IMG/VR virus record: IMGVR_UViG_3300042465_003568
Location: 27,161 to 91,160 of that record
DNA length: 64,000 nt
Strand: one strand, 5' to 3'
From: a virus
The notes under the pieces were generated by a model. The model saw nothing but the letters and a program-made list of their open reading frames with translations, had not been told where the DNA came from and made no database searches. Both the position numbers and the translations under genes were made by a program. Below, piece after piece: positions 10,328 through 34,844 of the stretch (positions are counted from its first letter, which is position 1; each line of letters opens with the position of its first letter).

Positions 10328-10417
10328 TGTTAAAAGACTTAGCCTGGGGCAGAAAACGTAGGGATCTGTGCTAAATACTATTATCTATAATTATCTGTAA
10401 ATTCAGATAATTTTTTG

Positions 10418-10860
10418 TGGACCTGGAGAGATTCGAACTCTCGTCTCCGATAGAGACAATAATACTAACGTATCACATGCTTAGTACTGCTTGCGCTGCA
10501 CCGTACATCAGTTGTTTAATAGGTACAACTAATAAAACCTTGATAGCACGGCTTCGCCCCCTGTATACCGTGTCGTAGAATGCTTGAGGTACGCCTCAAC
10601 GTAGCTAGGGAGCCACTCATTCCCACAGTCCTTATTTAACGAGTTGATCGTGAATACTCGGAGTAGTTCTGTTCCTAGGTTACTCACCCGATGCGGACTA
10701 AGCTGCTACAGCTAGGTCGGCGCCTACGAAGTCCATAAGGTCTTCGAAGGTGAATGAAGATAATTCTTCAGCGTTTATTGTTTAGTATCTTCTAAGGCAG
10801 TATACTCAAATGCCTGCATGTAGTATTACCTCAACAACCGGATCAATTCCAGTCAGGCCC
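10418..10860 (-). ncRNA. ssrA: Transfer-messenger RNA (tmRNA)
   Basis: Both tRNA-like ends are present. The 5' GGGCCTG pairs with the 3' CAGGTCC to form a seven-pair acceptor stem (one G-T). It is followed by the 5' tmRNA signature GACTGGAATTGATCCGG, and the 3' side has the T-arm GAGAG-TTCGAAT-CTCTC. Internally there is an open frame from a GCT resume codon to TAG with a hydrophobic Ala-Ala end, and GC-rich segments able to form the pseudoknot chain. At about 443 bases it is slightly longer than most. tmRNA rescues stalled ribosomes and tags the products for degradation. SmpB is not in the window and would come from the host. Confidence 0.9.
10698..10772 (-). other. Proteolysis-tag reading frame of the tmRNA
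   Basis: Reading from the GCT resume codon after AATAAAC gives 24 residues and a TAG stop. The tag begins AEELSSFTFEDL and ends GADLAVAA. The end matches the hydrophobic Ala-Ala signal recognised by ClpXP-type proteases, while the body is longer than and unlike the short GENNYALAA-type tags of Bacteroidota hosts. Resume position is inferred from the upstream consensus and the open frame. Confidence 0.75.
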
Positions 10861-11190: not shown

Positions 11191-11343
11191 TTACTTAGCA
11201 GAAGCCGTATCTACAGCTTGAGCCGTAGTATCCACAGCTACAGTAGAATCTACAGTTGTAGAGTCAGTAGCAATTTGTTCAGCAGGGGCTCCACAAGCAG
11301 CAAACATAAGTGCGGCTGCGATAACGATCATTACTTTTTTCAT
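11191..11343 (-). CDS. Small Thr/Asp-rich lipoprotein (50 residues)
   Basis: A short gene from ATG to TAA. The first 17 residues form a lipoprotein signal (MKKVMIVIAAALMFAAC) with the lipobox AAC and Gly after the cysteine. The mature part is only about 34 residues, repetitive in Thr, Asp, Ser, Val and Ala (DSTTVDST, VDTTAQ, VDTASAK), and predicted unstructured. Outer-membrane or periplasmic anchoring is expected. A TTATATTTACC element lies about 20 bases upstream. It is the first of a long series of exported products. Its role is unknown; it resembles small host-type lipoproteins rather than a spanin. Confidence 0.75.
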   Translation of the reverse strand: MKKVMIVIAAALMFAACGAPAEQIATDSTTVDSTVAVDTTAQAVDTASAK

Positions 11344-11416
11344 GTTCTATTTTGTTTTGTTATAAGGTAAATATAAGACAGATTTTTAAAACCATTATTA
11401 TTTATCTTTATAGTAC

Positions 11417-12655
11417 TTATAAATTTAACTTGCTTCCTATCATAAATGAATTAAGAATTGGCAATTCTTTATTTGTGCTGATTAATACTTTAAAGTTTAC
11501 GTTTACTTTAAATTTTCTAGTTAATTTAAAATCAGTAGCAAATCCAGTTAAAAACATGAGGCTCCTATCTCTAAGTTCTGTTTTGTTAGTAAAAGAATAG
11601 CTATATGGAGAACTGATCATAAATATATCCGGGATTATGATTTTTCTTTTAAACTGTATTGGACGCATAGCAAAACATATAATTGACGGGGCTAAGCTAT
11701 ATTGACCTGTATTTAATAGTGTGCTGTTAAAACTAATATTATATCCAGTGATTAATTTATCGATAGGTTGCACATAGGTATATGCAGCAAACATCATATG
11801 ATTTTTAAAATCTGTAAAGTATGTATTACTAAATGTGTGTACTGCTTCTAATTGACCTACGCTATTTGTTTCATTTTTACTATATCTAGCTCCAATTGCA
11901 ATTTTACTAAGGTCCATAAATATAGTTGATGATATACCCCAACTAGACATTCCAGTAAATGATGATTGAGAAATTCCTACATTCATAGTAGGTACTATAT
12001 TTTTTTGTGGAGGTTGTTCTGCAAAAGATAAATCAGCAGATACTATAACAGGATTTATTGATTGAAGTTTTTCTTTTTTGCTATCTTTCTTTTCTTCTTT
12101 CTTTTCTTCTTGTTTTTGCTCTTCTTTTTTTTCTTCACTTTTAGATTCACTCTTACTTTCACTCTTACTTTCAGTTTTAGATTCAGAAGATGTACTTTTA
12201 GATTCAGAAGATGTTGAACTAGAAGATCCGCTAGAAGATGAACTTGTAGATGGAGAAGCAGAAGGACTAGAAACAGAGGCTGATGCGCTAGATGATGCTG
12301 AACTAGAAGCGGCGCTTGAGGCGGCTGAACTTGCAGCCGATGATGCAGCCGATGATGCAGCTTGAACTGCAGATTGTGTAACTACTTGAGCAGTTTGTTG
12401 ATTAACAGGACATGGCTTAGAAAATATAGACTTTATCCATAAGTCTACTGAACCAGATCTAAAATCGTTTACTGTAAATATTTTGCTCTCACTTCTAATT
12501 ACAATTAGAACTCCAATATTTGTTAGTGGAAAAGATACTGTATAAATCTTATTATCACAAGGATCAACATAGACGTTTGTAATAGTTTGGCTTTTAGCAT
12601 TACCGGCTAATAATATTAAAACTAATATTGTTAAACTTGTAATCCATGTTTTCAC
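11417..12655 (-). CDS. Exported Ser/Lys/Glu-rich protein with putative outer-membrane beta-barrel
   Basis: 412 residues, GTG start. A signal peptide occupies residues 1-22, followed by a short globular domain to about residue 90. Then comes a low-complexity tract: Ala-Ser-Ser repeats, Ser/Thr, and a highly charged Lys/Glu/Gln stretch to about 195. The C-terminal half has alternating hydrophobic/polar strands (SSWGISSTIFMDLS, AFSNTYF-type, MFAAYTYVQPI) and ends in an aromatic/Leu strand, the look of a small outer-membrane barrel. It starts five bases after the CsgG-like gene ends, so it may be its partner. No known family is recognised. Confidence 0.6.
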   Translation of the reverse strand: MKTWITSLTILVLILLAGNAKSQTITNVYVDPCDNKIYTVSFPLTNIGVLIVIRSESKIFTVNDFRSGSVDLWIKSIFSKPCPVNQQTAQVVTQSAVQAASSAASSAASSAASSAASSSASSSASASVSSPSASPSTSSSSSGSSSSTSSESKSTSSESKTESKSESKSESKSEEKKEEQKQEEKKEEKKDSKKEKLQSINPVIVSADLSFAEQPPQKNIVPTMNVGISQSSFTGMSSWGISSTIFMDLSKIAIGARYSKNETNSVGQLEAVHTFSNTYFTDFKNHMMFAAYTYVQPIDKLITGYNISFNSTLLNTGQYSLAPSIICFAMRPIQFKRKIIIPDIFMISSPYSYSFTNKTELRDRSLMFLTGFATDFKLTRKFKVNVNFKVLISTNKELPILNSFMIGSKLNL

Positions 12656-12659
12656 TTAA

Positions 12660-13388
12660 CTAGTTTTTGAATATTGCTTTTTTAATCATTCTATCTAATA
12701 TATTTGCGCATGCTATGTCTAAAGCTTTTTTAGTAGCAATAGAAATGGTAGATTGATTAAACTTAATAGGATCTATAGAATCATCTGAAAGTAATGTTAA
12801 CTCTCTAGTAGTTTTTGCTTCGCCTAATCCTGATGCACCAAAGACTATCCCTGTTTCTGCATTAGTAAAACGTACTTGTAAACCAAGTCTAGTTACCATA
12901 TTATCTTTAATCCCATCTTTTAAATTAATAGTTTCGTCTTCTGATATAGAATAGTCATAAACTTCAATAGTTACGAAGTATTCAGCTAAGTTAATTTTAC
13001 CTCTGCCATCTAATTTATTCTCACTAATACCAGCTTGAGAAGCCTGGAATTGTTTTACCATTCTATTTTTAATCTCAGTTTTATCTTCTGTAAATTTAAA
13101 CCTATTTAAGTTTTCTAAATATTCCATAGAAATATTAGCAACTCCTAAACCAACTCTCTTTTCTTTAAGTTCAGGATACATTTCGTATATTTCGTCAGAA
13201 ATACCGCATTTTAATATTTGAATTGGAATCTGAGGTCCTTCGTAATCAAGGTAGGCAGATATATCTTTCTTTTTTTCAAAATCTGCTTTAAACTCTTCTG
13301 TTTTTGTAGATCCTATTACTTGACAGCGTGCTGTTTTATTTAGTAGAAATATGTTTAATAGACATAAAATCACTATAAAGTATTTCAT
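12660..13388 (-). CDS. CsgG-like exported protein
   Basis: 242 residues. A signal peptide spans residues 1-22 with Cys22 close to the cleavage site, followed by a domain with GVANISMEYLENLNRFKFTEDK, LAEYFVTIEVYDYS, LGLQVRFTNAETG and a C-terminal ALDIACANILDRMIKKAI helix. This order (an energetic/ageing-type strand, a polar domain, then an ATPase-free alpha/beta end) follows CsgG and CsgG-related outer-membrane secretion proteins. CsgG homologues are known from marine myophages. In bacteria CsgG forms the curli export pore. Nothing like a curli subunit is seen here, so the role is open. Confidence 0.6.
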   Translation of the reverse strand: MKYFIVILCLLNIFLLNKTARCQVIGSTKTEEFKADFEKKKDISAYLDYEGPQIPIQILKCGISDEIYEMYPELKEKRVGLGVANISMEYLENLNRFKFTEDKTEIKNRMVKQFQASQAGISENKLDGRGKINLAEYFVTIEVYDYSISEDETINLKDGIKDNMVTRLGLQVRFTNAETGIVFGASGLGEAKTTRELTLLSDDSIDPIKFNQSTISIATKKALDIACANILDRMIKKAIFKN

Positions 13389-13390
13389 AT

Positions 13391-13410
13391 TACGTAGTTT
13401 TATCTACGTA
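13391..13410 (-). promoter_or_regulatory. Perfect hairpin in the leader of the CsgG-like gene
   Basis: TACGTAG and CTACGTA form a seven-pair stem around a six-base loop, ending two bases before the start codon. It follows directly on an ATATTTATA element and the terminator of the upstream gene. The position could hide or expose the start region, so translational control is possible but unproven. Confidence 0.5.
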
Positions 13411-13417
13411 TAAATAT

Positions 13418-13441
13418 AAAAAAAGGGAGTATTTAGCTCCC
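13418..13441 (-). terminator. Rho-independent terminator after the T-receptor partner lipoprotein gene
   Basis: Minus-strand hairpin GGGAG-CTAAATA-CTCCC followed by seven T. It ends the transcript of the TonB-receptor operon. The T-run is part of the ATATTTATA element upstream of the next gene. Confidence 0.85.
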
Positions 13442-13450
13442 TAATATTTA

Positions 13451-14653
13451 TTAATGTCCCTTATTTGGGAATCTAGTCCATCCAACTGTCCAACCAGGTT
13501 TTGACAGTGTTTCCATTTCGTTTTTAGTATAAGACACTTCTTTATTTCCTTGACTCAATGCTTTTGTTTTCATTTCTGATGCAATTATTACAGCAGATGT
13601 AGATCTAAAATTTTGTAATGGATCAAATGCTTGTACTTCGTTATTTTCAAACTTGCTGACTCCATCTTTATAAGCTTGAGCAGTTTCATTTGACTCTATA
13701 CTAAAGCCGCCTTTCATGTAACCTAGTATCTTGGAGTTAGTTATTGTGAATTGGGTGGCTCTCCTCCACCTCAATCCTAAGTTATGATTGGTTATTGAGT
13801 TAGCATCAAAAGGGCCTACCAGAATCATCCCAATTAGCTTTGGGTGAGTAAATGGCTGCGCGCTTGATCCTGTTCCATCATTATCGCATTCTACACCATT
13901 ACCAGCATCTCCATTATCTACAAATTGAGGATCGCGTTTTGATACTCCGTTTGTTACAGTTCCAGTATATCCAAAGTCAAAGTCGAAGTCATCGTCTGCT
14001 GTAGCATACGCATATAAGTTCTTAGGTGATACTGTGCCTCCAAAAAATTCAAAGGCATCGTCGTTAGCGTAGATAGTTTGGACATTTTCGATTGTAGTAC
14101 CTGATCCTACTGCACCTAAAGTTAATCCATTGATTTCTGAGTTTGGTAGTGCAGCTATGCCTGCATATTCTATACGAATATACTTTAATATACCACTATT
14201 ATCATTATCATTCATACCACCATAAGGTCTACCAATACCACCTTCAATAGTTGGTTCAGCCGATCTATTTGTTTTAGCGCGGCCTAGTATTACAATACCT
14301 CCCCAATCTCCAGGAGTTTTTTCTCCTTCAGGTTTTCCTGATGTAAACACGATAGGTTTTGATACGGTTCCTTCTGCAATTATTTGTGCGCCTCTTTCAA
14401 TACATAGTGCACCTTTCTCAGCAATATCACTTATTATAGTAGTGCCAGGCTGAATGATTAATCTAGCACCATCAGTTACATACACGTATCCTTTGAGTGT
14501 CCATACTTTGTCTGATGTTAAAGTAGTTGTAGTATTAATGTTACCACTCAATGTAGTTACAGAAGGTACGTTGATAGGTTGCGCGTCGCCGCCTAGTTCT
14601 TTAGTGCAACTGAAGATACTGGTAGCAATTAGTAATAAGAAAAGCTTTTTCAT
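13451..14653 (-). CDS. Lipoprotein with right-handed beta-helix-like domain, partner of TonB receptor
   Basis: 400 residues. A lipoprotein signal (MKKLFLLLIATSIFSC) is followed by an Asn/Thr-rich linker and a domain from about residue 35 with repeated short strands: VWTLKGYVYVTDGARLIIQPG, then GGIVILGRA, GGIGRPYGG, LKYIRIEYAG. This family (beta-helix, DWGGIVILG and GGxYGG motifs) is common in Bacteroidota next to TonB-dependent receptors and is presumed to be a surface ligand-binding lipoprotein. Its start overlaps the receptor stop by four bases. The ligand is unknown. It is a full-length, undamaged host-type gene in a phage. Confidence 0.75.
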   Translation of the reverse strand: MKKLFLLLIATSIFSCTKELGGDAQPINVPSVTTLSGNINTTTTLTSDKVWTLKGYVYVTDGARLIIQPGTTIISDIAEKGALCIERGAQIIAEGTVSKPIVFTSGKPEGEKTPGDWGGIVILGRAKTNRSAEPTIEGGIGRPYGGMNDNDNSGILKYIRIEYAGIAALPNSEINGLTLGAVGSGTTIENVQTIYANDDAFEFFGGTVSPKNLYAYATADDDFDFDFGYTGTVTNGVSKRDPQFVDNGDAGNGVECDNDGTGSSAQPFTHPKLIGMILVGPFDANSITNHNLGLRWRRATQFTITNSKILGYMKGGFSIESNETAQAYKDGVSKFENNEVQAFDPLQNFRSTSAVIIASEMKTKALSQGNKEVSYTKNEMETLSKPGWTVGWTRFPNKGH

Positions 14654-16902
14654 AAGTTTACGTTTAGTGTTAATGAGACTGTTTGTTCATTGTTTATTTT
14701 TATTAAGTCGCCTCTATTCTTTTGATAATATCTAGAAGGCTGAGCTAATACATCTGATATGGCTAATTTTATTTCAGCTTTCTTTATCTTTCTAAGATAC
14801 ACAATATCTACTACGTCTCTAGAATTTTCAAATATATCTGAATAACCTTGAAAACCTACTGCAGATATTCTATCTCCGACTCTATTGTATGTTACATTTA
14901 ATGTGTTAGAGTTTTTGTGTAAATTTAATCCTCCATTGATAATATAATTAGACTGACCTTGTAGTTGTCTTTTAGATCCATTTACATTTACTTGTGATGT
15001 CATGATCGATGTATTAGCGTAGAAGTCCATCCAGCAAGTCATTTTCTTTCTTACTTCTATTTCTACACCATACAAATGTGCTTGATCTGGGTTCATATAA
15101 GTTAACAGTAAGTTTGAAGGAACAGATCCATCTGCTACGATTTGTTCGATAGGTTTTATGAATTGCTTACCAAATACTCCAATAGATATTGTTTCACCGG
15201 CTTTAGGATAGTATTCCCATTTTAGATCTATATTGTAAACATCAGACTTTTCTAATTTCGAGTTACCTAGTAGTTGTGCATTTCTAATAAAGTCATAGTA
15301 AGCAAAGTTAGCTACTTCTCTAAATTCTGGTCTTGCTAAGGTTTTGCTTATAGAAAACCTCTTCTTAATTCTGTCTACTGTTTTTGATATATTTAATGAA
15401 GGTAAAAAGTCTAAATACTTTCTGTCTACATTTACTTTTTGCCCACTAAAATCTGCTGTGTTAACTGTGAATACATTATACTCTGTTCTTAGGCCCGTGT
15501 TTAACTTCCAGTCTCCAAACTCTCTATCGTACATGATATAACCAGTCATCAAATCGAAATCAGCTTTATATCTGTCTGTGTTGTTTGTTATTTCGTTCAT
15601 CAAGTCAGAAGCTTCGTATCTAAATACTCTTGCTTGAAACTGTCTAATCTTTTTTAAATAATTAGAACCTATCTTAATATTGTTAAATTGTTTGTTAACG
15701 CTTGCATTGAAACTATTTTCATTCATTACACTCCAAAATCTGTAAGTATCTCTCCAAGCTATGGAATAGTTTTGATTTGTTCCTAATGATTTAGTAATAG
15801 GATTTACTCTATAATCAGGTTGATCTCTCAACATTAAGTTATAACCTATATTAAAATCAACAGTCTTGATCTTAGTATCGAATTGAGAATTAAGAACAGT
15901 CTTTACTATTTTATTACTCGATGTACTTCTAACGTCTTGAACGTTGTCGTAGTTCTCACCGAACCTGGTAAGATAGGATTGTTCTGTTTGATGATTGAAT
16001 AAAGTTTTTAGACTATATCTATACTTTCCTATGTAAGTAATATTCAAAAGAGAATTAACAGATTCTATTTGTGTGTAAGAAGTGTCTCTGTATTTGTACG
16101 CAAGCTCTGTAGAAGATTGATAGTCTAATCTATCGATGTAATTTAAAGTGTGAGATCTCCTTCCTGTAGAACTCAATAAAGCATTCCATTTATTTTTATT
16201 AATTCCAAATGAAAGTGATCCATTATAATTAGGGCTAGATGTAAAACTTTTTGGTTCATAAGATTGAAGCATCTTTGTGTATGCTCTTCTATCTCCTAAA
16301 CTACCGACTCTAAAGTTATACGTAGAAGGAAACGCGGAAGGGAATTTAGCTCCTTGTACTAACTTGAAGCCTTTCGAAGTTGAAACTAAACCCCAACCGG
16401 TTCCTAGAGAAATATTTAAAAAACTATTAGATACATCTTTAGTTGTTATTTGAATTAATCCGCCAGAAAAATCTCCGGGTAGATTTGCTGCAGCAGACTT
16501 TGCTACAACTATATTGTCTATTAAGTTAGAAGGAACTATATCAAAAGAGAAAGCTCTTCTATCTGGTTCTGTTGATGGAAGCAGGGTTTTATTTAGTAAG
16601 GCTGAATTGTATCTATCCGCTAGCCCTCTAACTAAAACGAATTTATCGTTTTGAATAGTAACTCCGTTAATTCTTTTTAAAGCATCACCTACAGTTCTAT
16701 CAGGAGTCTTTTTTATATACTCTATAGATATTCCGTCTGATACTACAGAACTATTTTTGATGGAGTTAATTACCGCTAAATTACTTTCTTTCTTGGCTAC
16801 TGACTTTACTGTTATCTCTCTTAAATTTTTATTGAAAACTGTATCTTGAGAGTATGCTAAAATAGGAAACAGCGAAACAAAAATAAAAAACGACTTAATC
16901 AT
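14650..16902 (-). CDS. TonB-dependent outer-membrane receptor
   Basis: 750 residues with signal peptide (cut after SQ near residue 19). The plug domain spans roughly residues 40-170 and includes TVGDALKRINGV, RGLADRYNS, then DIVPSNLIDNIVVAKSAAANLPGDFSGGLIQI, the classic plug end of Bacteroidota receptors. The barrel fills the rest and ends TVSLTLNVNL, a proper terminal beta-strand. There is no frameshift or truncation, so it should be functional. Such receptors import siderophores, vitamins, glycans or other nutrients using TonB energy. A complete receptor in a phage genome is unusual; possible roles are nutrient uptake for the infected cell or exclusion of competing phages. Confidence 0.9.
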   Translation of the reverse strand: MIKSFFIFVSLFPILAYSQDTVFNKNLREITVKSVAKKESNLAVINSIKNSSVVSDGISIEYIKKTPDRTVGDALKRINGVTIQNDKFVLVRGLADRYNSALLNKTLLPSTEPDRRAFSFDIVPSNLIDNIVVAKSAAANLPGDFSGGLIQITTKDVSNSFLNISLGTGWGLVSTSKGFKLVQGAKFPSAFPSTYNFRVGSLGDRRAYTKMLQSYEPKSFTSSPNYNGSLSFGINKNKWNALLSSTGRRSHTLNYIDRLDYQSSTELAYKYRDTSYTQIESVNSLLNITYIGKYRYSLKTLFNHQTEQSYLTRFGENYDNVQDVRSTSSNKIVKTVLNSQFDTKIKTVDFNIGYNLMLRDQPDYRVNPITKSLGTNQNYSIAWRDTYRFWSVMNENSFNASVNKQFNNIKIGSNYLKKIRQFQARVFRYEASDLMNEITNNTDRYKADFDLMTGYIMYDREFGDWKLNTGLRTEYNVFTVNTADFSGQKVNVDRKYLDFLPSLNISKTVDRIKKRFSISKTLARPEFREVANFAYYDFIRNAQLLGNSKLEKSDVYNIDLKWEYYPKAGETISIGVFGKQFIKPIEQIVADGSVPSNLLLTYMNPDQAHLYGVEIEVRKKMTCWMDFYANTSIMTSQVNVNGSKRQLQGQSNYIINGGLNLHKNSNTLNVTYNRVGDRISAVGFQGYSDIFENSRDVVDIVYLRKIKKAEIKLAISDVLAQPSRYYQKNRGDLIKINNEQTVSLTLNVNL

Positions 16903-17010
16903 TATTAAGGATTGTTAGTACCTTTATAATTATTAAGCCGCTTTTTAGGTGGGCTATTTATTGTGTTATTAAATTATTAACTAATTTTAAAATTTTTATT
17001 AATTAACTTT

Positions 17011-17250
17011 TTACTCTCCACTTTTTTTATTTATAAATTTATCAACAGAAGCTATACCAAAGCAAGCGATTGTTAATATTTTAAATGAATCAAAAATAAA
17101 CTCATTTATAAGTAGCGGTTTATTCATAGCTCCTGTTATGATGTCTGTAATAGCAAACATACACATCATTAAGAAAGCTGCGAATCCTATAACTGCTTTT
17201 TCATTGATAGAATTACTATCATTGAAAAGATCGTGAAAAAATTTTTTCAT
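17011..17250 (-). CDS. Holin-like small membrane protein
   Basis: 79 residues with two membrane segments: about 20-39 (AVIGFAAFLMMCMFAITDII) and 50-68 (FIFDSFKILTIACFGIASVD). The two are joined by a short loop with Asn/Lys, and the ends are charged (KKFFHDLF at the N-terminus, FINKKSGE at the C-terminus). This topology and location two genes from the endolysin fit a phage holin, which would release the endolysin through the inner membrane. Sequence families of holins are diverse, so the call rests on size, topology and context. Confidence 0.65.
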   Translation of the reverse strand: MKKFFHDLFNDSNSINEKAVIGFAAFLMMCMFAITDIITGAMNKPLLINEFIFDSFKILTIACFGIASVDKFINKKSGE

Positions 17251-17290
17251 TTCAATAATTTTAATTTATTTAATATCGATAACTTTATTC

Positions 17291-17713
17291 TTACTCTTTT
17301 ATTTTTCCGCATTTTAAACATTCCAAATCACCATCATTATCAAAATCTCCCCAAACGTGTTCACATTGTCTATGCGCGAAGTACTCATCAATTTTACCAT
17401 CGCCATCGAAATCTAATCCATCCATTACACCATCTCCATCTTCATCAATTTCAACGCACCCTCTTGCTTCGGCACTTACACCCACTTCTGCGGTTGCTGC
17501 AACAGATGTATCCGTTATCTCAACACCCACACTTGCGTGAGCCTCACCAGTAACCTCAACGGTTAATTCTACACCATCAACAGTAGTACTTACTGAAGAT
17601 GAATCTTCAACACTCGCACCATCTTGTGGGTCTGCAGTGATTTGGCCACCACCAGTTTCAAATCCAATTTTTAGACCGTTATCTTCCTGTGCTTTTTTTA
17701 CTTCTTCTGACAT
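17291..17713 (-). CDS. Acidic protein with EF-hand-like Ca-binding loops and a zinc knuckle
   Basis: 140 residues, strongly acidic. The first two thirds are Val/Thr/Glu-rich beta-like repeats (VELTVEVTGEAHASVGVEI). Near residues 90-112 there are back-to-back calcium loops DEDGDGVMDGLDFDGDGKID. The C-terminus has C-x2-H, DFDNDGD and C-x2-C, a possible combined calcium/zinc site. No signal peptide is seen. It lies between the holin-like gene and a small TM protein in the lysis region. The calcium loops resemble dockerin/thrombospondin-3 type loops of Bacteroidota surface proteins. Function is unknown. Confidence 0.6.
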   Translation of the reverse strand: MSEEVKKAQEDNGLKIGFETGGGQITADPQDGASVEDSSSVSTTVDGVELTVEVTGEAHASVGVEITDTSVAATAEVGVSAEARGCVEIDEDGDGVMDGLDFDGDGKIDEYFAHRQCEHVWGDFDNDGDLECLKCGKIKE

Positions 17714-17728
17714 ATTTTTAATATTATA

Positions 17729-18037
17729 TTACCACAGCGGTTCTTTTTCTTTAAATTCGTCTCCTTCTTTTTTCTTAGGTTTAGCTGTAGCTTCTTTTAC
17801 TGTTTCTTTTTCTTTAATAATAATAGTTTTCCCTCCAGCTGCTTGCTGCTGTTGTTGAGTATTGTTAATAATAATACTAGGTTGAGCTTGTACTGGTTGA
17901 GCGGTATCGTTTCCGCCACCAAACAATGTTGATCCTAACCAAGCCCCACCGGCTGTTACAACTGTAGCTAACGTACCTACAATAGTTTTTTTTAGCCCAG
18001 TCCAAGTTCCTTCTTGCTGATTTGTTTCTTCTGACAT
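17729..18037 (-). CDS. Small membrane protein in the lysis region
   Basis: 102 residues. A hydrophobic segment at about 16-36 (TIVGTLATVVTAGGAWLGSTLF) follows a polar N-terminus. The rest is a Gln/Lys/Glu-rich tail with IIINNTQQQQQ and IIIKEKETVKEA, likely flexible or coiled. It starts two bases before the endolysin gene ends. A spanin-like or anti-holin role is possible by position, but there is no lipobox and no family motif. Confidence 0.5.
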   Translation of the reverse strand: MSEETNQQEGTWTGLKKTIVGTLATVVTAGGAWLGSTLFGGGNDTAQPVQAQPSIIINNTQQQQQAAGGKTIIIKEKETVKEATAKPKKKEGDEFKEKEPLW

Positions 18038-18039
18038 AG

Positions 18040-18642
18040 TTAACTGTTTAAAAGGTTATAGTATTCTTTAAAATGTTTAATTCTATCTGGAAGTCCAATT
18101 GTACCTCCATTTACTCTTTTTGTTACTTTAGTAACTACTAAATCACTGGCTCCTTCATCTGCTATTTTATGTAAGCTATTTTTATAAAAGAACCACGCTG
18201 CAGAAGCTAAAGGATATTTTGTAGCTACTAAATCAGGATTTGCTACACAATCTTCTCCAATAGATTTTGAGAACGCAGTATAGTTATCTTTTCCTGTAAG
18301 TTGTATAAATCCTCTTCCTTTAAATTTAGATCCATCACCAGAAGTTTCAGAACCGTTACCCATTCTACTAGCGTATACTTTATTTGCTATTTTATCAGGC
18401 TGTCTTTGATATTGATTAGCCACTGCTTCTGTAGGAAAATACTTCTTAAATATTCCCATCAAACCTTTACTAGAATAATTTAAATTTTCTTTCAAGAATT
18501 TAAATCCTCCTGATTCATGTCCGCACTGTGCTAAAAAGTGAGCGAGTCTAATTGGAGTATTTAATTCAAATTTAGCTATTGTGTCTGGTATTTGGGCTAG
18601 TACTTGATCTGGGATATGCCCTTTTAATTTTTGTATATTCAT
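18040..18642 (-). CDS. GH19 family endolysin (chitinase/lysozyme type)
   Basis: 200 residues, a single catalytic domain of the GH19 lysozyme family. HFLAQCGHESGGF contains the catalytic Glu43 after His42; FKGRGFIQLTGKDNY and the C-terminal RIKHFKEYYNLL are typical of phage GH19 lysozymes. There is no signal peptide, so release through a holin is expected; the holin-like gene is close by. It cleaves the glycan strands of peptidoglycan. A second muramidase of another family is fused to the tail hub protein further along the window. Confidence 0.9.
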   Translation of the reverse strand: MNIQKLKGHIPDQVLAQIPDTIAKFELNTPIRLAHFLAQCGHESGGFKFLKENLNYSSKGLMGIFKKYFPTEAVANQYQRQPDKIANKVYASRMGNGSETSGDGSKFKGRGFIQLTGKDNYTAFSKSIGEDCVANPDLVATKYPLASAAWFFYKNSLHKIADEGASDLVVTKVTKRVNGGTIGLPDRIKHFKEYYNLLNS

Positions 18643-18648
18643 AAATTA

Positions 18649-19008
18649 TTACTTTTTGATTATTATATTTGTTTTATATTCAGTGCCTTGAATGTCTATA
18701 AGTATTAAATTATAGTCGCCATTTTTAAGATCAGAAAAATCTAACTTTTTTGTTACATTAGAACTTTCTGCAGTAAAACCTAATATTTTTAATTCTTTTC
18801 CAAGTAAATTTGTTACCTGGAGTGAATACTTGGCGTTTGTAGTTAACGTCATGTCAACTACTATATTTGAGCCATTTGAAACAATTGGAGAAACTTTGTT
18901 AATAACAGATGCTTTGGGAATAGCACCTAATTCTATTTTTAGAGGCTCAATTTGTATTTTTGTGCATCCAACAAATATAAATATCAAGATGTATAGTAGC
19001 TTTTTCAT
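18649..19008 (-). CDS. Lipoprotein consisting of a type IX-like C-terminal sorting domain
   Basis: 119 residues. A lipoprotein signal (MKKLLYILIFIFVGC) is followed by about 100 residues that read as a beta-sandwich. The end, YSLQVTNLLGKELKIL then LDFSDLKNGDYNLILID and TNIIIKK, resembles the type A sorting domain of type IX secretion cargo. It starts one base after the cohesin-like gene ends. A stand-alone, lipid-anchored sorting domain is odd because it is normally the C-terminus of a larger secreted protein. The domain call is by pattern, without alignment. Confidence 0.55.
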   Translation of the reverse strand: MKKLLYILIFIFVGCTKIQIEPLKIELGAIPKASVINKVSPIVSNGSNIVVDMTLTTNAKYSLQVTNLLGKELKILGFTAESSNVTKKLDFSDLKNGDYNLILIDIQGTEYKTNIIIKK

Positions 19009-19009
19009 A

Positions 19010-20779
19010 TTAATTAAAGTTATTGTATCCGGTTAATTTTATGGACTGAGTATTTAAATTGATTCCTAACTGATTGCCATTATTGTCTGAAGCATCCAGG
19101 TTCGAGGTTATTTGTATTTTAGTATTCAGATCTAACCCGTTTTCGAGTGCCGAGAATTTTAGTTTAAATGGTAGTGATGCGCCTATTATAGAATTTTTAA
19201 GATCTTTGTCTATAGCTCCAAATTTTATTTTACCTTCTTTAGAATTAGCAAATACATACCATGAATTAGGTACTTCAGATTTAATATCCTCAAATTTTAC
19301 TTTAGTATTATCATAGACAAATTCAAATTGTATTGCAGATACATTATTTCCTTTAGTGTCTAAATTTATAGGAATTTCTATATTGTTTGATGTGATAACT
19401 ATATTTTTTAAATTAACATCTATATAAGAAACATTTTTAATATCATTAAAACCATATGCAGCATTTGAAAGCCCAGATAATAACAAACTATTTTTTGCGG
19501 TTGTTATAGTTTGTCCATTTAATACAACTTGAGAAGAGTGAGACCTATTTATATCTCCTGGTACTATATATTTTAAATCAACTGTATCAGCCACACTTTT
19601 AGTTTTGAACTTAACTTTAAAAGAGTTCATATCTGTAAGTGTTAGTTGCAAAGCTTCATCTACACCAACATTGTCAAAATAGTTTTTTGTGAATATAGGC
19701 AAATTAGTAATATTAGAATTAGCTTGGCTATTAAATATAGTGTCCGCTCCTACTGCTTGAGCAAAAAGTAAGGCTAAATCTCCTCCGTCAAACTTTTGAT
19801 TTCTATTAACATCTGCTGCAAAAAAACTCATTCCTGATGTCATTGAAATTTTATTAAATGTTCCATCAAGGTTTTGTTTAATAAATTCATTTTGTGCTGC
19901 TGTGTAATCTGATACTGTTACAGCTCTAGATAGTATGCTCCCTAAACTATCTGAAGGGATCCATGCGGATGCATAATAAGTTGTATTAGGCAAAATCTCA
20001 CTAGATAAATTATAAGATCCATTAGTACCAACTGATCTACTTGCTCTTAGTATATTATTAGTAGAATCTGTAAAAGCTAGTGTAGGCTTTAAATTACCAA
20101 ATAAATTTCCGTTGACTTGAAAAGTTCCGCGAATTAGTGCATTTAAATTGGGATCTAGATTAATCCAAGCAGAATTAGGTTTGGGCATTGTAATTGTCAT
20201 TTCTTGACCTGAGTTACTCCATCCGTATGCAAAGTTATAATAAATAGAATCATAAGCAAAACCTGCTTGGATATTAACTACTTTAAAACGAAGATAACAA
20301 AGAACACCATTGTTCAGTTGTGTCATATTACCATTAGGAGTGGCAGTATTAATGTTAATACGATTAATAGCTTTAGTTTGTCCTTGTGCATATTGATACT
20401 GCGCATTTTGTGAATTTTGCAAACCATTCTCGGTATTATTGTTTGCATTATTAAACCAATTATATCCTGGATAGTAATTATTAGAAAACGAAGTTTGAGT
20501 TCCAATAGGAATAGCTTCTGTTCCTGATTGTGGAAACACAATTCCTATCATACTGATAGCCGATATTTGATGTTGGAAGTCAAGATAAAAGTTTCTTATA
20601 TTAGAGTTATTATTCTTTAATACAAGAGCGACTTCAACTGTATCATCTTTTTCAATGGCTCCGCCATTAATATCTGTAGTTATTAAGTTAGGCCAGATTT
20701 TAAGTTCTGGTGGTGTATTCTGGCTATAGGATGAAAAAGCAACTATAAAAGTAGCTAAAAGCAAAATTATTTTTTTCAT
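19010..20779 (-). CDS. Secreted cohesin/dockerin-like protein
   Basis: 589 residues with signal peptide (cut after SYSQ, residue 20). An N-terminal beta-domain with repeated Asn/Gln tracts reaches about residue 215, followed by a carboxypeptidase-regulatory-like segment. A dockerin-like calcium loop ADVNRNQKFDGGDLALLFA lies near residues 320-340. The C-terminal domain (about 440-589) has the cohesin-like pattern VSAIQFEFVYDNTKVKFEDIK. This is the composition of Bacteroidota secreted proteins, usually followed by a sorting domain; here that domain is on the next gene. Role is unknown. Confidence 0.65.
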   Translation of the reverse strand: MKKIILLLATFIVAFSSYSQNTPPELKIWPNLITTDINGGAIEKDDTVEVALVLKNNNSNIRNFYLDFQHQISAISMIGIVFPQSGTEAIPIGTQTSFSNNYYPGYNWFNNANNNTENGLQNSQNAQYQYAQGQTKAINRININTATPNGNMTQLNNGVLCYLRFKVVNIQAGFAYDSIYYNFAYGWSNSGQEMTITMPKPNSAWINLDPNLNALIRGTFQVNGNLFGNLKPTLAFTDSTNNILRASRSVGTNGSYNLSSEILPNTTYYASAWIPSDSLGSILSRAVTVSDYTAAQNEFIKQNLDGTFNKISMTSGMSFFAADVNRNQKFDGGDLALLFAQAVGADTIFNSQANSNITNLPIFTKNYFDNVGVDEALQLTLTDMNSFKVKFKTKSVADTVDLKYIVPGDINRSHSSQVVLNGQTITTAKNSLLLSGLSNAAYGFNDIKNVSYIDVNLKNIVITSNNIEIPINLDTKGNNVSAIQFEFVYDNTKVKFEDIKSEVPNSWYVFANSKEGKIKFGAIDKDLKNSIIGASLPFKLKFSALENGLDLNTKIQITSNLDASDNNGNQLGINLNTQSIKLTGYNNFN

Positions 20780-20783
20780 ATTT

Positions 20784-21449
20784 TTAATCTAGTAATTTAG
20801 TAATCAACGCAACACAGGTTTTCTTAACTGCATTTCTCATGACCGTTGAATTAAATTGACCAGATTCAGAAATCAATAATGTTGAGGTGGAGATTTCTGA
20901 AGACTCATCTGTGACAGTTTGTCTTTTGATGATCTTACCTTTATTGTCTAATAGTACTCCTTCCATTCTAATGATGACAGCGTTTTCATCTTTGTGGAAT
21001 ATAGACACATTGGTATTAGTTTGTTTTTGATCCATATAAACTATATTTGCACTGATCAAAAACTCGGCGTCTTCTTTGTTTGTTAAATTATAACCTTTAT
21101 CTTGAGCAACTTCTTCTATAATATTTTTAACTCCAAAAGCTAGATTTTTGTTACCTGTCATCGGACCTATTTTCACACTATTTACAACAGTATTAATGTA
21201 GATCGTTTTATATTGCGCAGAGAATGCGCTAGATTTACTAAAAGTTCCGTCAAATTTATGTATATACCAAGTATTAATTGACGTAGCTATATTTTTAAAC
21301 CCAGAAAAATCTAAAACTATTAAGCTAATTTGTAAAAATAGTCCTAGAAGGACAAAAGATATAATTAACTTTAGAAATAATTGTTCTAAAAGAATATATA
21401 TATACTTATTCACTCTATAATTGGTTATATAAATAAATATCAAAACCAA
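20784..21449 (-). CDS. Membrane-anchored protein, possibly CsgG/LptE-like fold
   Basis: 221 residues, TTG start if the longest frame is used; the true start is uncertain. One hydrophobic stretch at about 26-48 (LKLIISFVLLGLFLQISLIV) would anchor it in the inner membrane. The remainder is periplasmic-like: FGVKNIIEEVAQDKG, DAEFLISANIVYMDQ, IRMEGVLLDNKGKII, MRNAVKKTCVALI. The strand order loosely resembles CsgG-related lipoproteins, but I do not assign a family. It lies in the exported-protein block. Confidence 0.5.
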   Translation of the reverse strand: MVLIFIYITNYRVNKYIYILLEQLFLKLIISFVLLGLFLQISLIVLDFSGFKNIATSINTWYIHKFDGTFSKSSAFSAQYKTIYINTVVNSVKIGPMTGNKNLAFGVKNIIEEVAQDKGYNLTNKEDAEFLISANIVYMDQKQTNTNVSIFHKDENAVIIRMEGVLLDNKGKIIKRQTVTDESSEISTSTLLISESGQFNSTVMRNAVKKTCVALITKLLD

Positions 21450-21468
21450 TTATTAATTTATAAAGTAT

Positions 21469-21726
21469 CTATTTAAATTTAGCCAAAGTTGATTTAAGTT
21501 GATCTTTAGACATAACTCCAGAACTTCTGAACAGGGTATTTCCTGCATGATCTACAACTACAATAGTTGGAACTGCGCTAATTTCATACTTTTGAGAAAA
21601 AGTAGTATCATAATCAACGTTAATATCGTTTATAGAAATACCTAAATCTCTTGAAACTTCTTGAACAATAGGCTTAAAAACTTTACACGGTCCACACCAT
21701 GGAGCTGAGAAATACAAAACTTGCAT
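21469..21726 (-). CDS. Thioredoxin-like protein
   Basis: 85 residues, short for thioredoxin but with the core fold: strand VLYFSAPW, active site CGPC (Cys11 and Cys14), strand INDINVDYD, then the cis-proline motif SAVPTIVV and a terminal helix. There is no signal peptide, so it is probably cytoplasmic. Phage thioredoxins usually reduce ribonucleotide reductase; the class II reductase in this window needs such a reductant. It sits beside an exported nuclease with disulfides, so another client is possible. Confidence 0.88.
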   Translation of the reverse strand: MQVLYFSAPWCGPCKVFKPIVQEVSRDLGISINDINVDYDTTFSQKYEISAVPTIVVVDHAGNTLFRSSGVMSKDQLKSTLAKFK

Positions 21727-21727
21727 A

Positions 21728-22372
21728 TTACTTTATTTTAAATTTTAAATTCGTTAACTTTTCTACTTCTTCTATTGTTACTTTGTTATCTTCTATACCG
21801 TTAGGTTTAGATTGATCATTTTGAAAGATATAAGCTAGCCAACTATTAGAACTCTTTATGTATAAAACTTTCCAACACTTTTCAGGAATAGATAGTCTTC
21901 CTACCTTCTTGGCCTCTCCTACTGATCCTGTCCATATTTTTATAGAGTCTTGAGCTTTTGCCCACTCTCTAGTTTTCATCTCTAGTATCTTCCAGTCTCC
22001 TCTATTCAATGATCCGTATTGTGGAGTCATATTTGAAAAGTAGAAAGACTCTTTCATAGCATCAGGCCCAGAACATTGATTATCGGCTGCTGGGGCCATG
22101 TGGCCGCGATCAAAGCCAGATCCAATATAATCTTTAGCTATGTTTGTTTCAGCCTCTAGAAGTGGATCAGGTACAAACTGGTCTTTTCTTGGTATTGGAT
22201 TTGTACACGATACTTTTTGCTTGGTTAACCACCACTCCACAAGTACTGGATACTTTAAAGATTTAGAAAATACTGTAGTATACTCTTTATGATTTAACCT
22301 TACTGTATCTTGTGCCTTTAATGACACACTAAAAAAAAGAACTATTGCAATTGAGTATAATAATTTAAACAT
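21728..22372 (-). CDS. Exported DNA/RNA non-specific endonuclease (NUC family)
   Basis: 214 residues with signal peptide (MFKLLYSIAIVLFFSVSLKAQ). The catalytic motif DRGHMAPAADN (Asp88-Arg-Gly-His91) and a downstream SNMTPQ with the metal-binding Asn mark the beta-beta-alpha-metal NUC/EndA family. The enzyme would be exported to the periplasm or medium and degrade any nucleic acid. Its stop is one base before the thioredoxin start, and it overlaps the upstream small gene. It could scavenge nucleotides or phosphate, or block competitors' DNA entry; both are inference. Confidence 0.88.
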   Translation of the reverse strand: MFKLLYSIAIVLFFSVSLKAQDTVRLNHKEYTTVFSKSLKYPVLVEWWLTKQKVSCTNPIPRKDQFVPDPLLEAETNIAKDYIGSGFDRGHMAPAADNQCSGPDAMKESFYFSNMTPQYGSLNRGDWKILEMKTREWAKAQDSIKIWTGSVGEAKKVGRLSIPEKCWKVLYIKSSNSWLAYIFQNDQSKPNGIEDNKVTIEEVEKLTNLKFKIK

Positions 22373-22542
22373 TCTTTATTATAAATATCGATTGTTCTAA
22401 TTGTTCTTTTAGGATTAAAGGTATAGGAGTTTTTAGGTTTATTTTTCTTTTGCCACTCTTCGTATTTATCTTCTTGAAGCCAATGGTCTGTTTGCTTCTT
22501 CATTATTTTTAGAAGCTGGTCTCGTCTTTGTTCGTAACTCAT
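22342..22542 (-). CDS. Small basic protein of unknown function
   Basis: 66 residues, Lys/Gln-rich helical N-terminus (RRDQLLKIMKKQTDHWL) and a Thr/Arg-rich C-terminus. It overlaps the nuclease gene start by 31 bases. The start ATG lies only four bases after a perfect TATATTTG element, which suggests a leaderless or nearly leaderless transcript. No family is recognised. Confidence 0.55.
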   Translation of the reverse strand: MSYEQRRDQLLKIMKKQTDHWLQEDKYEEWQKKNKPKNSYTFNPKRTIRTIDIYNKECLNYYTQLQ

Positions 22543-22546
22543 ATAT

Positions 22547-22554
22547 CAAATATA
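22547..22554 (-). promoter_or_regulatory. Perfect TAnnTTTG (-7-like) element after a terminator
   Basis: TATATTTG on the minus strand equals the Bacteroidota primary sigma factor -7 consensus. It starts in the T-run of the upstream terminator and ends four bases before a start codon. No convincing TTTG -33 box was found because that position is inside the terminator hairpin. Confidence 0.5.
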
Positions 22555-22578
22555 AAAAAAACCTCTTATTTAGAGGTT
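22554..22578 (-). terminator. Rho-independent terminator after the DUF1501 gene
   Basis: Minus-strand hairpin AACCTCT-AAATA-AGAGGTT followed by a long T-run. It separates the DUF1501 transcript from the nuclease/thioredoxin transcript. Confidence 0.85.
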
Positions 22579-22606
22579 ATCTTTATTTATAGTGATTCAC
22601 TATTTT

Positions 22607-24061
22607 TTAAACTATGATTCCGTTAACTACTTTACCAGCTACATCGGTAAGTCTATATCTTCTTCCTAAGTGTTTATATGTAAGCGTTTCGTGATCTATT
22701 CCCATCAAGTGTAATATTGTTGCGTGGAAGTCATGAACATCTACAGGATCTTTTATAATATTGTATCCAAATTCATCTGTTTCTCCATAAACAATACCGG
22801 GCTTAATTCCTCCACCTGCCATCCAGATGCTGAAACACTTTGGATGATGATCTCTGCCATAATTTATAGGATCAATTCTTCCTTGACAAAAGTTTGTTCT
22901 TCCAAATTCACCACCCCAGATTACGAGTGTTTCGTCAAGGAGTCCACGTTGCTTCAAGTCTTTTATAAGTGCTGCTGAAGCGCGGTCTACGTCTTCTGCC
23001 TGCATTTTCATATCGTTAACAAGATTGCCATGGGTATCCCATCCTTGGTGATAGAGTTGAACAAAACGAACGCCTGATTCAGTTAACTTTCTTGCTAGCA
23101 AACAATTCGCAGCATATGTTCCAGGAATTAAACAATCTGCTCCATACATTTTAATGACATGGTCAGGTTCTTTATTTAAGTCTGTTAATTCAGGAACTGC
23201 TGTTTGCATACGATAAGACATTTCGTATTGTTGAATTCTGGTATTTATCTCAGGATCTCCAAAATTTTGAAATGCTTCGGTGTTAAACTTTGCTAGTTGA
23301 TCTAGCATATCTCTTCTATTTTGCTTATTGTGTCCTTCTGGATTTTTAAGATATAATACTGGATCTTCGCCGCTGCTAAACACAACTCCTTGGTGCATAC
23401 TATCTAAAAAACCATTGCTCCAAAGTTTTGAATATACACCCTGACCATTGCCGCGTCCACGGGAAAGCAAAACCGTATAAGCAGGAAGATTAGAATTTTC
23501 ACTTCCAAGTCCATAACTCATCCATGCACCCATACTAGGTCTATTGCCTTGTTGTGCACCTGTTTGGAAAAATGTTAGTGCAGGATCGTGGTTAATTGCT
23601 TCTGTATTCATACTTCTGATGATACAGATATCGTCTGCTATTGATCCTATATGTGGAAATAAACTTGATATAGAAGCACCTGATTGTCCGTACTGATTGA
23701 AACCAAATGCAGAGCCTACCAATGGGAACTTATCTTGGTTTGCAGTCATGCCAGTTAACCTTTGCCCATTTCGTATTGAGGCAGGTAGATCTTGACCATG
23801 CATTGTATTCAATAGAGGTTTGTGATCAAAGGTTTCAAGTTGAGACGGTGCTCCATTTTGAAACAAGTATATAACTCGTTTTGCTTTTGGTGCAAATTGT
23901 GCAATACCAAGTGGTAAAGATTTAACTTCTCCACTAGATCCAAACAATTGATCTTTGAATAGCATGGTTCCTAAAGCAGCGCTTCCGATACCTAGACCTG
24001 CCTTTGTTAGAAAATGCCTTCTAGTAATGTTTAGTCTAAACTGTTTTTCTTGGTTTTCCAT
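22607..24061 (-). CDS. Tat-exported DUF1501 (sulfatase/phosphatase superfamily) protein
   Basis: 484 residues, the full length of the family. A twin-arginine signal (ITRRHFLTKAGLGIGSAALG, Arg14-Arg15) is followed by the DUF1501 domain. This has FQNGAPSQLETFDHKP near residue 68, WDTHGN, GGEFGRTNF, GRDHHPKCFSIWMAGGG and the C-terminal DFHATILHLMGID. These Asp/His motifs are the metal sites of the alkaline phosphatase/sulfatase superfamily. The substrate is unknown; the family is abundant in Planctomycetes and Bacteroidota. The copy is intact and has its own terminator and upstream ATATTTATT element. I know of no established phage role. Confidence 0.88.
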   Translation of the reverse strand: MENQEKQFRLNITRRHFLTKAGLGIGSAALGTMLFKDQLFGSSGEVKSLPLGIAQFAPKAKRVIYLFQNGAPSQLETFDHKPLLNTMHGQDLPASIRNGQRLTGMTANQDKFPLVGSAFGFNQYGQSGASISSLFPHIGSIADDICIIRSMNTEAINHDPALTFFQTGAQQGNRPSMGAWMSYGLGSENSNLPAYTVLLSRGRGNGQGVYSKLWSNGFLDSMHQGVVFSSGEDPVLYLKNPEGHNKQNRRDMLDQLAKFNTEAFQNFGDPEINTRIQQYEMSYRMQTAVPELTDLNKEPDHVIKMYGADCLIPGTYAANCLLARKLTESGVRFVQLYHQGWDTHGNLVNDMKMQAEDVDRASAALIKDLKQRGLLDETLVIWGGEFGRTNFCQGRIDPINYGRDHHPKCFSIWMAGGGIKPGIVYGETDEFGYNIIKDPVDVHDFHATILHLMGIDHETLTYKHLGRRYRLTDVAGKVVNGIIV

Positions 24062-33227: not shown

Positions 33228-34844
33228 TTACATTCCCATACCCATCATAGGGTCGGCTTTTTCATCTTTGTCTTTTTTTTCAAATACAACTGATTCTGTA
33301 GTTAGAATTGTTCCGGCAACGGATGCAGCATTCTTGAGGGCGGTAATAACCACCTTTGCTGGATCAATGATACCTGCTTCAAGAGCATTCACTATTTTGT
33401 GACTCTTTGCATCGTATACTTGGCCTTCGCCTGGGATATTCTCGAACCAGTTTTCTACTCCGGCATTACTCAAGATCTTCTTGAATGGTGATTGAAGTGC
33501 GGTTCTTACAATGTCTCTAGCAATAGCAACATTTGAATTGCTCTCTGCTCTATGGTTTAATGATACTCTGTAAAGAGTTGCACCACCACCTGGAACAATG
33601 CCGTCTGCAAGTGCAGCTTTAGTTGCGAACAAGGCGTCTTCTACACGATCTTTCTTTTCTTTGATCTCAATATCACTATTTCCACCAACAGAAATGATCG
33701 CAACACCACCGACTAGTTTACCTAATCTCTCTTGTAGCTTTTCTCTCTCATAGAAAGAGGTTGCCTTTTCTATTTGCTCTTTAATTTCTATCGCTCTATT
33801 AGCCAAAGCTGTTTCATCACCTTTACCATCAATGATAGTAGTCTCTTCTTTAGAAACCGTGATAAGTCTAGTTGATCCAAGATACTGAGCTAGTTGTTGC
33901 GTAGATAGTTTATCAAGCTTTAAACCTTTGTCTTTAGAGATAACTTGGCCGCCGGTCAAGATAGCAATGTCTTCAAGGATCAAAGTCTTACGCTCACCAA
34001 AGTCTGGTGCTTTAACTGCGCAAACTTGTACGATGCCACGCATCTTATTAACAATGAGTGTAGCAAGTGCTTCATCTCCAATGTCTTCAGCGATGATCAA
34101 CAAAGGTCTATTCTCAGAGTTAGCTTTAGTTAGTACTTGTAGTAGCTCTTGAGCTGTAGAAATACGACCATCATAAAGTAGTACATAAGGATTGTCAAGC
34201 ACGGCTTGCATCGTTGTGTTATTAGTCACAAAATAAGGTGACTTATAACCACGATCAAACTGCATACCTTCTACGATCTCGAGTGTTGTTTCACCAGACT
34301 TAGACTCTTCAATAGTAACCACACCTTCACGACCTACTTTATCAATAGCTTCGCTGATAAGGTTACCTACTTCTGAATCGTTATTACCTGATATAGTTGC
34401 AACTTGTTTGATTTGCTCTTCTGAAGATATTTCGATTGCCATATCTTTTATTTCTTGCACGATTTCATTTACAATCTTATCGATCTCATTCTTGATCTCT
34501 ACTGCATTAGATCCTTGACGAATCTCTTTCAAGCCTGCTTTAACAAGCTCTGTAGCGATCAATGTAGATGTTGTTGTACCATCACCTGCTTCATTTGCAC
34601 TTTTAATACTAACTTGTTTAACTAGCTGCGCTCCAAGGTCTTCGATATCATCTTCTAACTTGTGGAATGCTTTTGCAACTGTTACTCCGTCCTTAGTAAC
34701 TTTAACTTCACCAGATTGTTCTCTGATTAAAACAGTTCTACCACCTGGACCTAATGTAGATGTAACTGACGCATTTAGCTTTTCTATGCCTGACAGAAGC
34801 TTTTCTTTAAGCTCTGTTCCGAAAACATTTTTTGTTGTACTCAT
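33228..34844 (-). CDS. groEL: Chaperonin GroEL (60 kDa)
   Basis: 538 residues, the full bacterial length. It has the nucleotide-binding motifs TLGPGGRTVLI and GDGTTTSTLIA, the intermediate domain, an apical domain with RGYKSPYF, and the C-terminal GGATLYR region. The protein ends in a Gly-Met tail (MMGMGM) like cellular GroEL. It is therefore a complete chaperonin, not a relic. It lies 11 bases after groES and forms a folding operon with the Hsp20 gene. It may fold phage capsid or tail proteins in an AT-rich host under stress. Confidence 0.97.
   Translation of the reverse strand: MSTTKNVFGTELKEKLLSGIEKLNASVTSTLGPGGRTVLIREQSGEVKVTKDGVTVAKAFHKLEDDIEDLGAQLVKQVSIKSANEAGDGTTTSTLIATELVKAGLKEIRQGSNAVEIKNEIDKIVNEIVQEIKDMAIEISSEEQIKQVATISGNNDSEVGNLISEAIDKVGREGVVTIEESKSGETTLEIVEGMQFDRGYKSPYFVTNNTTMQAVLDNPYVLLYDGRISTAQELLQVLTKANSENRPLLIIAEDIGDEALATLIVNKMRGIVQVCAVKAPDFGERKTLILEDIAILTGGQVISKDKGLKLDKLSTQQLAQYLGSTRLITVSKEETTIIDGKGDETALANRAIEIKEQIEKATSFYEREKLQERLGKLVGGVAIISVGGNSDIEIKEKKDRVEDALFATKAALADGIVPGGGATLYRVSLNHRAESNSNVAIARDIVRTALQSPFKKILSNAGVENWFENIPGEGQVYDAKSHKIVNALEAGIIDPAKVVITALKNAASVAGTILTTESVVFEKKDKDEKADPMMGMGM

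Follow-up and report, generated by a model that had tools for sequence, protein, structure and literature searches.

Large viruses of freshwater Bacteroidota carry paired host surface proteins, probably for phosphorus uptake

I describe here a pair of genes, encoding a TonB-dependent receptor and a surface lipoprotein, that large viruses of freshwater Bacteroidota carry, probably for phosphorus uptake, and that would probably be switched on by the phosphate-starvation signal of the host. The pair (D, the receptor, and C, the lipoprotein, in Table 1) lies in a 64,000-nucleotide stretch of DNA, called the window below, that comprises bases 27161-91160 of the 91,160-bp IMG/VR virus record IMGVR_UViG_3300042465_003568, and within the window it sits in the block of genes at positions 11191-24061 studied here. 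This block consists of three layers, namely a framework of exported and lysis-linked genes (A, B, E, F, I, J and others), the receptor/lipoprotein cassette and a DUF1501 gene (M). My preferred reading, to which I give a probability of about 0.75, is that the pair forms a cassette for acquiring phosphorus at the outer membrane, controlled by the PhoB of the host: receptor and lipoprotein would be made during infection, would help the cell to take up more of the scarce phosphorus, whether as phosphate or in organic form, that viral DNA synthesis requires, and would be read from a promoter whose 11-bp direct repeats resemble host PhoB sites and which therefore would fire in a phosphate-starved host, the cassette presumably having been inserted into a conserved phage framework. 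Phosphorus limits lakes and virus production; pstS and the other phage phosphorus genes known work inside the outer membrane, whereas the system proposed here would stand at the outer membrane itself and, if this is true, infected Bacteroidota cells would alter their uptake from the water through a signal read via host-type Pho boxes.

The receptor and lipoprotein cassette

Receptor D matches the Plug (PF07715) and barrel (PF14905) families above cut-off and TIGR01782 below it, and a scan with an alignment of D found relatives at at least 113 IMG/VR viral loci. Among the best 80 of these, 71 have more than 600 nt downstream of the receptor and could be checked, and lipoprotein C follows the receptor directly in 71/71. 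A T4-type portal was found on 22 of 70 carrier records (5/20 and 17/50; many carriers are fragments, and the 70 include G000 and L005, which are one phage), and terminase matches on 4 of 20, two of them with in-frame stops; the terminase match on the contig of locus L022 (G507:C1:33499-34980) has five in-frame stops. The sequence-only reading of the window had raised the prospect that host DNA was joined to phage by assembly error, and this was not borne out: the same stretch occurs at 99.99-100% identity on a 162,469-bp IMG/VR contig that also carries terminase and T4-type portal matches, which makes an assembly error very unlikely, and misassembly was rejected. The block is intact phage DNA.

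The pair is also under strong purifying selection, with ratios of nonsynonymous to synonymous substitution (dN/dS) of 0.035-0.138 for D and 0.042-0.089 for C where unsaturated, ten comparisons being saturated (all nine with the bacterium Aquirufa, discussed below, and that of L006 with L022). Lipoprotein C, whose lipobox was read by eye, is modelled as a right-handed parallel beta-helix (predicted local distance difference test, pLDDT, 78) with its best structural match to AlgG (Z 24.1, root-mean-square deviation (rmsd) 3.0, 266 aligned); Foldseek alone gave no match for C at E 0.001 or better, phmmer against the PDB returned nothing for C, D or M, and the best PHROG match for the pair (E 0.026) was not convincing. 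An N-terminal extension of about 70-100 amino acids (aa), which probably corresponds to the CarboxypepD-like domain found in bacterial copies, is kept in 43 of 79 phage receptors (L117-L194), the window-like phages being without it.

Furthermore, the pair is found in phages with quite different gene surroundings, and of the 16 loci in which both the pair and framework gene B are visible, 4 have the pair upstream of B and 12 have it downstream. The idea that it is a fixed part of the framework was rejected, the receptor being present in the fetched stretch of 1 of 35 framework loci and that one being this phage; framework locus L281 shares its contig with receptor locus L183. The pair is an inserted cassette, separate from the framework, with its own upstream element and phosphorus signature, and, residing on viral genomes, being of host-type descent and under selection, it fits a phage phosphorus auxiliary gene.

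This phosphorus signature comes from the bacterial relatives. The closest named one is Aquirufa antheringensis (65% identity for the receptor, 72% for the lipoprotein), where a phosphodiesterase-like gene and a PHO4-family transporter come after the pair and an alkaline-phosphatase operon is close by. Across 20 hand-picked Bacteroidota neighbourhoods (19 chosen from beta-helix matches and one, L077, for its receptor), 19 contained a receptor and 8 a PhoB-like regulator cluster, compared with 0/20 for each in control stretches about 40-50 kb away; a cluster of 234-aa proteins appeared in 3 of the 20 far controls and in none of the near neighbourhoods. Similarly, the PhoBR operon of F. johnsoniae is described as holding Fjoh_0545 (Plug, OMP_b-brl_3 and CarboxypepD) and the lipoprotein Fjoh_0546 (pectin-lyase fold), both strongly raised by phosphate depletion (PMC8115612). 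An alternative that I consider unlikely is that the substrate of the pair is some other nutrient (oligosaccharides, iron chelates or a vitamin, for instance) and that the pair stands among phosphorus genes by coincidence. TonB receptors do serve many substrates and beta-helix folds are frequent among sugar-acting enzymes. Carbohydrate uptake has also been proposed for the SusC-like genes of megaphages (PMC9723777), but the neighbours in Aquirufa are phosphorus genes, with no SusD-like or sugar gene seen beside the pair, and the repeat upstream is common to phosphorus operons.

The upstream repeat and the origin of the pair

A motif search from random starts in the 20 bacterial receptor upstreams alone returned TTAACA every 11 bp. 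When this bacterial matrix was applied to the phages (79 loci tried, 68 usable and 52 after dereplication, with starts set at the first ATG, so that TTG starts, for example that of L140, are misplaced), the receptor upstream outscored every other gene upstream in 22 of 52 loci, where 3.1 would be expected, and ranked first or second in 31, where 6.3 would be expected; the repeat site was the best of the whole fetched stretch in 13/79. Similarly, TAA[CT] words stand 11 bp apart 57 times across 53 phage loci versus 3.8 times in shuffles (z 26.6), with another peak at 22 bp (19 versus 3.7) and a lesser one at 8 bp (31 versus 4.0). In the first Aquirufa genome, 6 of the 7 matches to a three-unit pattern lie just upstream of four phosphorus operons, namely the receptor pair; HAD, oxidoreductase and alkaline phosphatase; PHO4 transporter and phosphate-selective porin; and metallophosphoesterase and glycosyltransferase, and this placement is what is expected of a Pho box. 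Taken as a whole, the phage set has 11-bp direct repeats in common with bacterial phosphorus operons, and these make up a putative PhoB site.

With regard to the window itself, the exact group pattern, which was drawn from the same window-like sequences in which its conservation was counted, occurs once in each of these (9/9, of which 7 are distinct), 59-78 bp before the receptor, and in the seven-row alignment of the upstreams it is the longest block without any variation; a second conserved stretch closer to the receptor start is common mainly to the four closest sequences. Allowing at most two mismatches, the window holds five matches to this pattern (1.6 expected), the sole exact one being that at 16964-16980 before the receptor. 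A general phage promoter was rejected as the source of the repeat on these grounds, and the claim that the block uses the same elements as core phage genes fails for the receptor. The window's degenerate copy may work as a regulatory element. Just as unlikely as the import of another nutrient, in my view, is that the repeats are binding sites for a regulator or sigma-factor partner encoded by the phage and that the pair is a timed phage gene rather than a host PhoB target; degeneracy in the window and the carriers that lack a repeat would suit such a regulator, but the motif learned from bacterial copies finds the phage ones, and the exact element does not stand before other phage genes in the window.

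A number of observations weigh against PhoB-controlled phosphorus uptake. By the bacterial matrix, 15/200 shuffles score as well as the window's repeat, which is not significant alone, and in the near-identical L005 the repeat ranks 50th of 44,448 positions. The receptor upstream is outside the top two in 21 of the 52 phage loci, and L008, L015 and L022 have no repeat by this matrix, their receptors perhaps being read from an upstream gene; also, the 20 training upstreams include two near-identical Aquirufa copies. In two Aquirufa genomes, the three-unit pattern with at most one mismatch has 7 matches each versus 8 and 5 for the reversed control, and the number of matches says nothing because the control gives about as many. 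Two members of the PhoB-like cluster were scanned and have PhoB as their best NCBIfam match, below the curated cut-off, and the transport substrate of the bacterial pair is left unproven in the available text of the cited papers. Finally, the "host PhoB" is presumed, and binding, expression and transport by the phage pair are proposed from sequence.

Now considering where the pair came from, the receptor tree (a quick tree, in which LR745206 and several bacterial rows are long branches) places 73 phage rows and 2 Aquirufa rows in one clade (support 100), with Aquirufa sister to nine phages (100) within that clade and branches of 93, 85 and 94 in between. Aquirufa may have received the pair from phages because its copies sit inside phage diversity in this tree. 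A search of 200 genomes of the family found the receptor at E 1e-80 or better in 3, two of them Aquirufa-like and one on a 4.2-kb contig, and phages may be the main reservoir of this receptor subfamily. I would put at a little under even odds the broader proposal of an old, large T4-type phage lineage of freshwater Bacteroidota with energised outer-membrane phosphorus uptake under host PhoB, for which phages are now the main reservoir.

The framework and the DUF1501 gene

The sequence-only reading saw in this block a single new module of unusual breadth. Its many envelope proteins are indeed there, but the block is not one new module because most of it is the framework of hundreds of viral contigs, while the receptor pair is a separate cassette and the DUF1501 gene was seen, among the viral records searched, in this phage only. 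Signal peptides, lipoboxes and a Tat motif were read by eye in the block products, and this reading marks ten of them as probably exported, namely the 50-aa lipoprotein at 11191-11343 together with A, B, C, D, H, I, J, L and M; that the block is made almost entirely of exported proteins was overstated, the GH19 endolysin, the thioredoxin, E, F, d79 and a protein of 66 aa also lying inside it. All named genes of the block are present, uninterrupted and on the minus strand, as had been proposed. The names given to them held in part: B has a CsgG fold by structure and no CsgG match in Pfam, and the sorting domain of H and the TraT match of J fall below Pfam cut-offs. The tmRNA (transfer-messenger RNA) border was recovered by Rfam at 10415-10860, unlike in an ARAGORN run, which made no tmRNA call at this place. 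In addition to the tmRNA, the phage encodes a GroEL chaperonin (window 33228-34844), and other genes near the block are DNA polymerase, DnaB-like helicase, ribonucleotide reductase and thymidylate synthase.

Table 1. Features of the block and its border (window positions), and candidate Pho boxes before Aquirufa operons (positions in loci L209 and L030)
Feature	Position	Strand	Basis or remark
tmRNA	10415-10860	-	borders block; Rfam RF00023, 56.1 bits
Small lipoprotein, 50 aa	11191-11343	-	read from sequence
A: Ser-rich exported protein, probable outer-membrane barrel	11417-12655	-	framework; barrel inferred by eye
B: CsgG-fold exported protein	12660-13388	-	framework; fold match to CsgG
C: beta-helix lipoprotein, 400 aa	13451-14653	-	overlaps D by 4 bp; right-handed beta-helix model
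D: TonB-dependent receptor, 750 aa	14650-16902	-	PF07715, PF14905; without CarboxypepD-like N-terminal domain
11-bp direct-repeat (Pho-box-like) element	16964-16980	-	78 bp upstream of receptor start
d79: 79 aa, two hydrophobic stretches, holin-like by eye	17011-17250	-	no Pfam or PHROG match
E: 140 aa; relatives elsewhere about 200 aa with two hydrophobic stretches	17291-17713	-	
F: 102 aa, one hydrophobic stretch	17729-18037	-	framework; 35/35 loci; immuto gp016
G: GH19 endolysin	18040-18642	-	PF00182, phrog_181
H: lipoprotein, weak sorting-domain match	18649-19008	-	E 4e-4, below Pfam cut-off
I: cohesin-domain exported protein	19010-20779	-	framework; PF00963
J: weakly TraT-like protein	20784-21449	-	framework; PF05818 E 4.5e-4, below cut-off; 35/35 loci
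K: thioredoxin, no signal peptide seen	21469-21726	-	PF00085
L: exported non-specific nuclease	21728-22372	-	PF01223; relatives of Serratia nuclease and EXOG
M: DUF1501 protein, Tat-like signal	22607-24061	-	PF07394
Candidate Bacteroidota Pho box, TTAACA every 11 bp	L209 4872-4897, 9727-9752; L030 9574-9599, 21374-21399		before four Aquirufa phosphorus operons

The framework, composed of TraT-like, cohesin, CsgG-fold and Ser-rich outer-membrane proteins, endolysin, small membrane proteins, nuclease and thioredoxin, is widespread in phages. A scan with B found at least 472 viral loci encoding a relative of it; counts were made on the best 80 of these (L211-L290) and then on the 35 with at least 18 kb, in which J, F and B are present in 35, E in 30, I in 27 and A in 24, in the nearly constant order J-I-F-E-B-A (window 11417-21449). 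This order, with its CsgG-fold, cohesin-domain and Ser-rich exported proteins, is recurrent in large Bacteroidota-type phage contigs, and parts of the window's gene order are also found in other phages at lower identity. The search for the same gene set in related phages, proposed as a check, was answered in part: the framework is shared, a receptor stands in the fetched stretch of one framework locus of 35 (this phage itself) and the DUF1501 gene was found in no other viral record searched.

Relatives of seven framework genes (A, B, F, I, J, K and L) are encoded by an isolate, Flavobacterium phage vB_FspM_immuto_2-6A (NC_055915), at 27% over 173 aa for A (gp018), 52% for B (gp017), 67% over 40 aa for F (gp016), 33% over 86 aa for I (gp015), 37% for K, 28% for L and, weakly, 26% for J. 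In immuto the relatives of F and B touch, whereas the window has E, d79 and the receptor pair in between, and immuto is not among the records matching the receptor, the beta-helix or DUF1501. Cohesin protein I found no record in the 'phages' set at 1e-5, though immuto gp015 matches it in direct comparison. The structure model of B (pLDDT 79) is CsgG-like (Foldseek E 9.4e-7; Z 11.6, rmsd 4.1, 170 aligned), and no lipobox was seen by eye in the window's B or in 13 printed relatives; for the framework proteins, nothing convincing came from the PHROG families (best E 0.0027). Among the framework genes lie an endolysin and small, holin-like proteins of the membrane, for which no holin match was returned; my guess is a lysis-linked role for the framework, possibly in lysis of the outer membrane.

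The DUF1501 gene is the third layer. A pattern scan, which reaches close relatives only, returned this phage alone, and tblastn in the 'phages' set returned none. Its product M matches PF01663 (Phosphodiest) at E 0.0098, below cut-off. I take DUF1501 to belong to the alkaline-phosphatase superfamily, and M might be a phosphatase.

So many exported proteins around the pair invite a further alternative, more improbable than those above, close to what the sequence-only reading suggested, in which the surface proteins would alter the envelope so that superinfection is blocked or receptors are hidden. TraT is a surface-exclusion protein, and J is weakly TraT-like, but in many phages the pair lacks the exported framework nearby and keeps its bacterial-type partner and upstream repeat. 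That the pair is a functionless passenger copy of host genes, as the existence of close bacterial relatives might suggest, is scarcely credible because of the purifying selection, the number of viral loci and the unbroken adjacency described above.

Comparison with known systems

The nearest likeness to the phosphorus cassette is the F. johnsoniae pair Fjoh_0545/0546 (PUS IV/FII-type), also a Plug/OMP_b-brl_3 receptor next to a pectin-lyase-fold lipoprotein in a phosphorus context (PMC8115612); the window pair differs in being phage-borne and without the CarboxypepD-like N-terminal domain, and the likeness is in domains, fold and gene context. The FI/FII/FIII lipoproteins are reported to be homologous to ElpS of Caulobacter (PMC8115612), a surface lipoprotein linked to low phosphate, its gene co-occurring with that of the TonB receptor Cc0171 (PMC2996285), in another phylum and likened here by description. 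Cyanophage pstS is also a phage phosphorus gene, and control of phage genes by host PhoBR has been described (PMC10976474), but PstS is the phosphate-binding protein of inner-membrane uptake, whereas the genes discussed here are for an outer-membrane receptor and a surface lipoprotein in Bacteroidota-type phages. Within the framework, the CsgG of Melnitz and the pelagimyophages is likewise a phage-encoded CsgG-fold protein with a proposed role in lysis (PMC9004378); B differs from it, as described, in having no Pfam CsgG match, no lipobox seen and another context.

In the literature searched, whose coverage excluded preprints and most subscription journals, I found no report of the pair, the phosphorus link or the upstream element in phages, and the main text of PMC10987575, on soil-phage phosphorus genes, does not contain "TonB". 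Among the papers found, such a receptor in phages is discussed only in PMC9723777, where SusC-like genes, TonB-dependent receptors in the phage genomes Mar_Mega_1 and LR745206, are presented with no mention, in the text available, of a lipoprotein partner or upstream element. These megaphage proteins differ from those of the window (26% and 38-39% identity), and LR745206, a 634-kb phage, has a distant pair of beta-helix and receptor genes whose order is reversed (L004 13713-17238). The cassette described here offers a testable role for the TonB receptors of megaphages, together with a candidate Pho box for the Bacteroidota.

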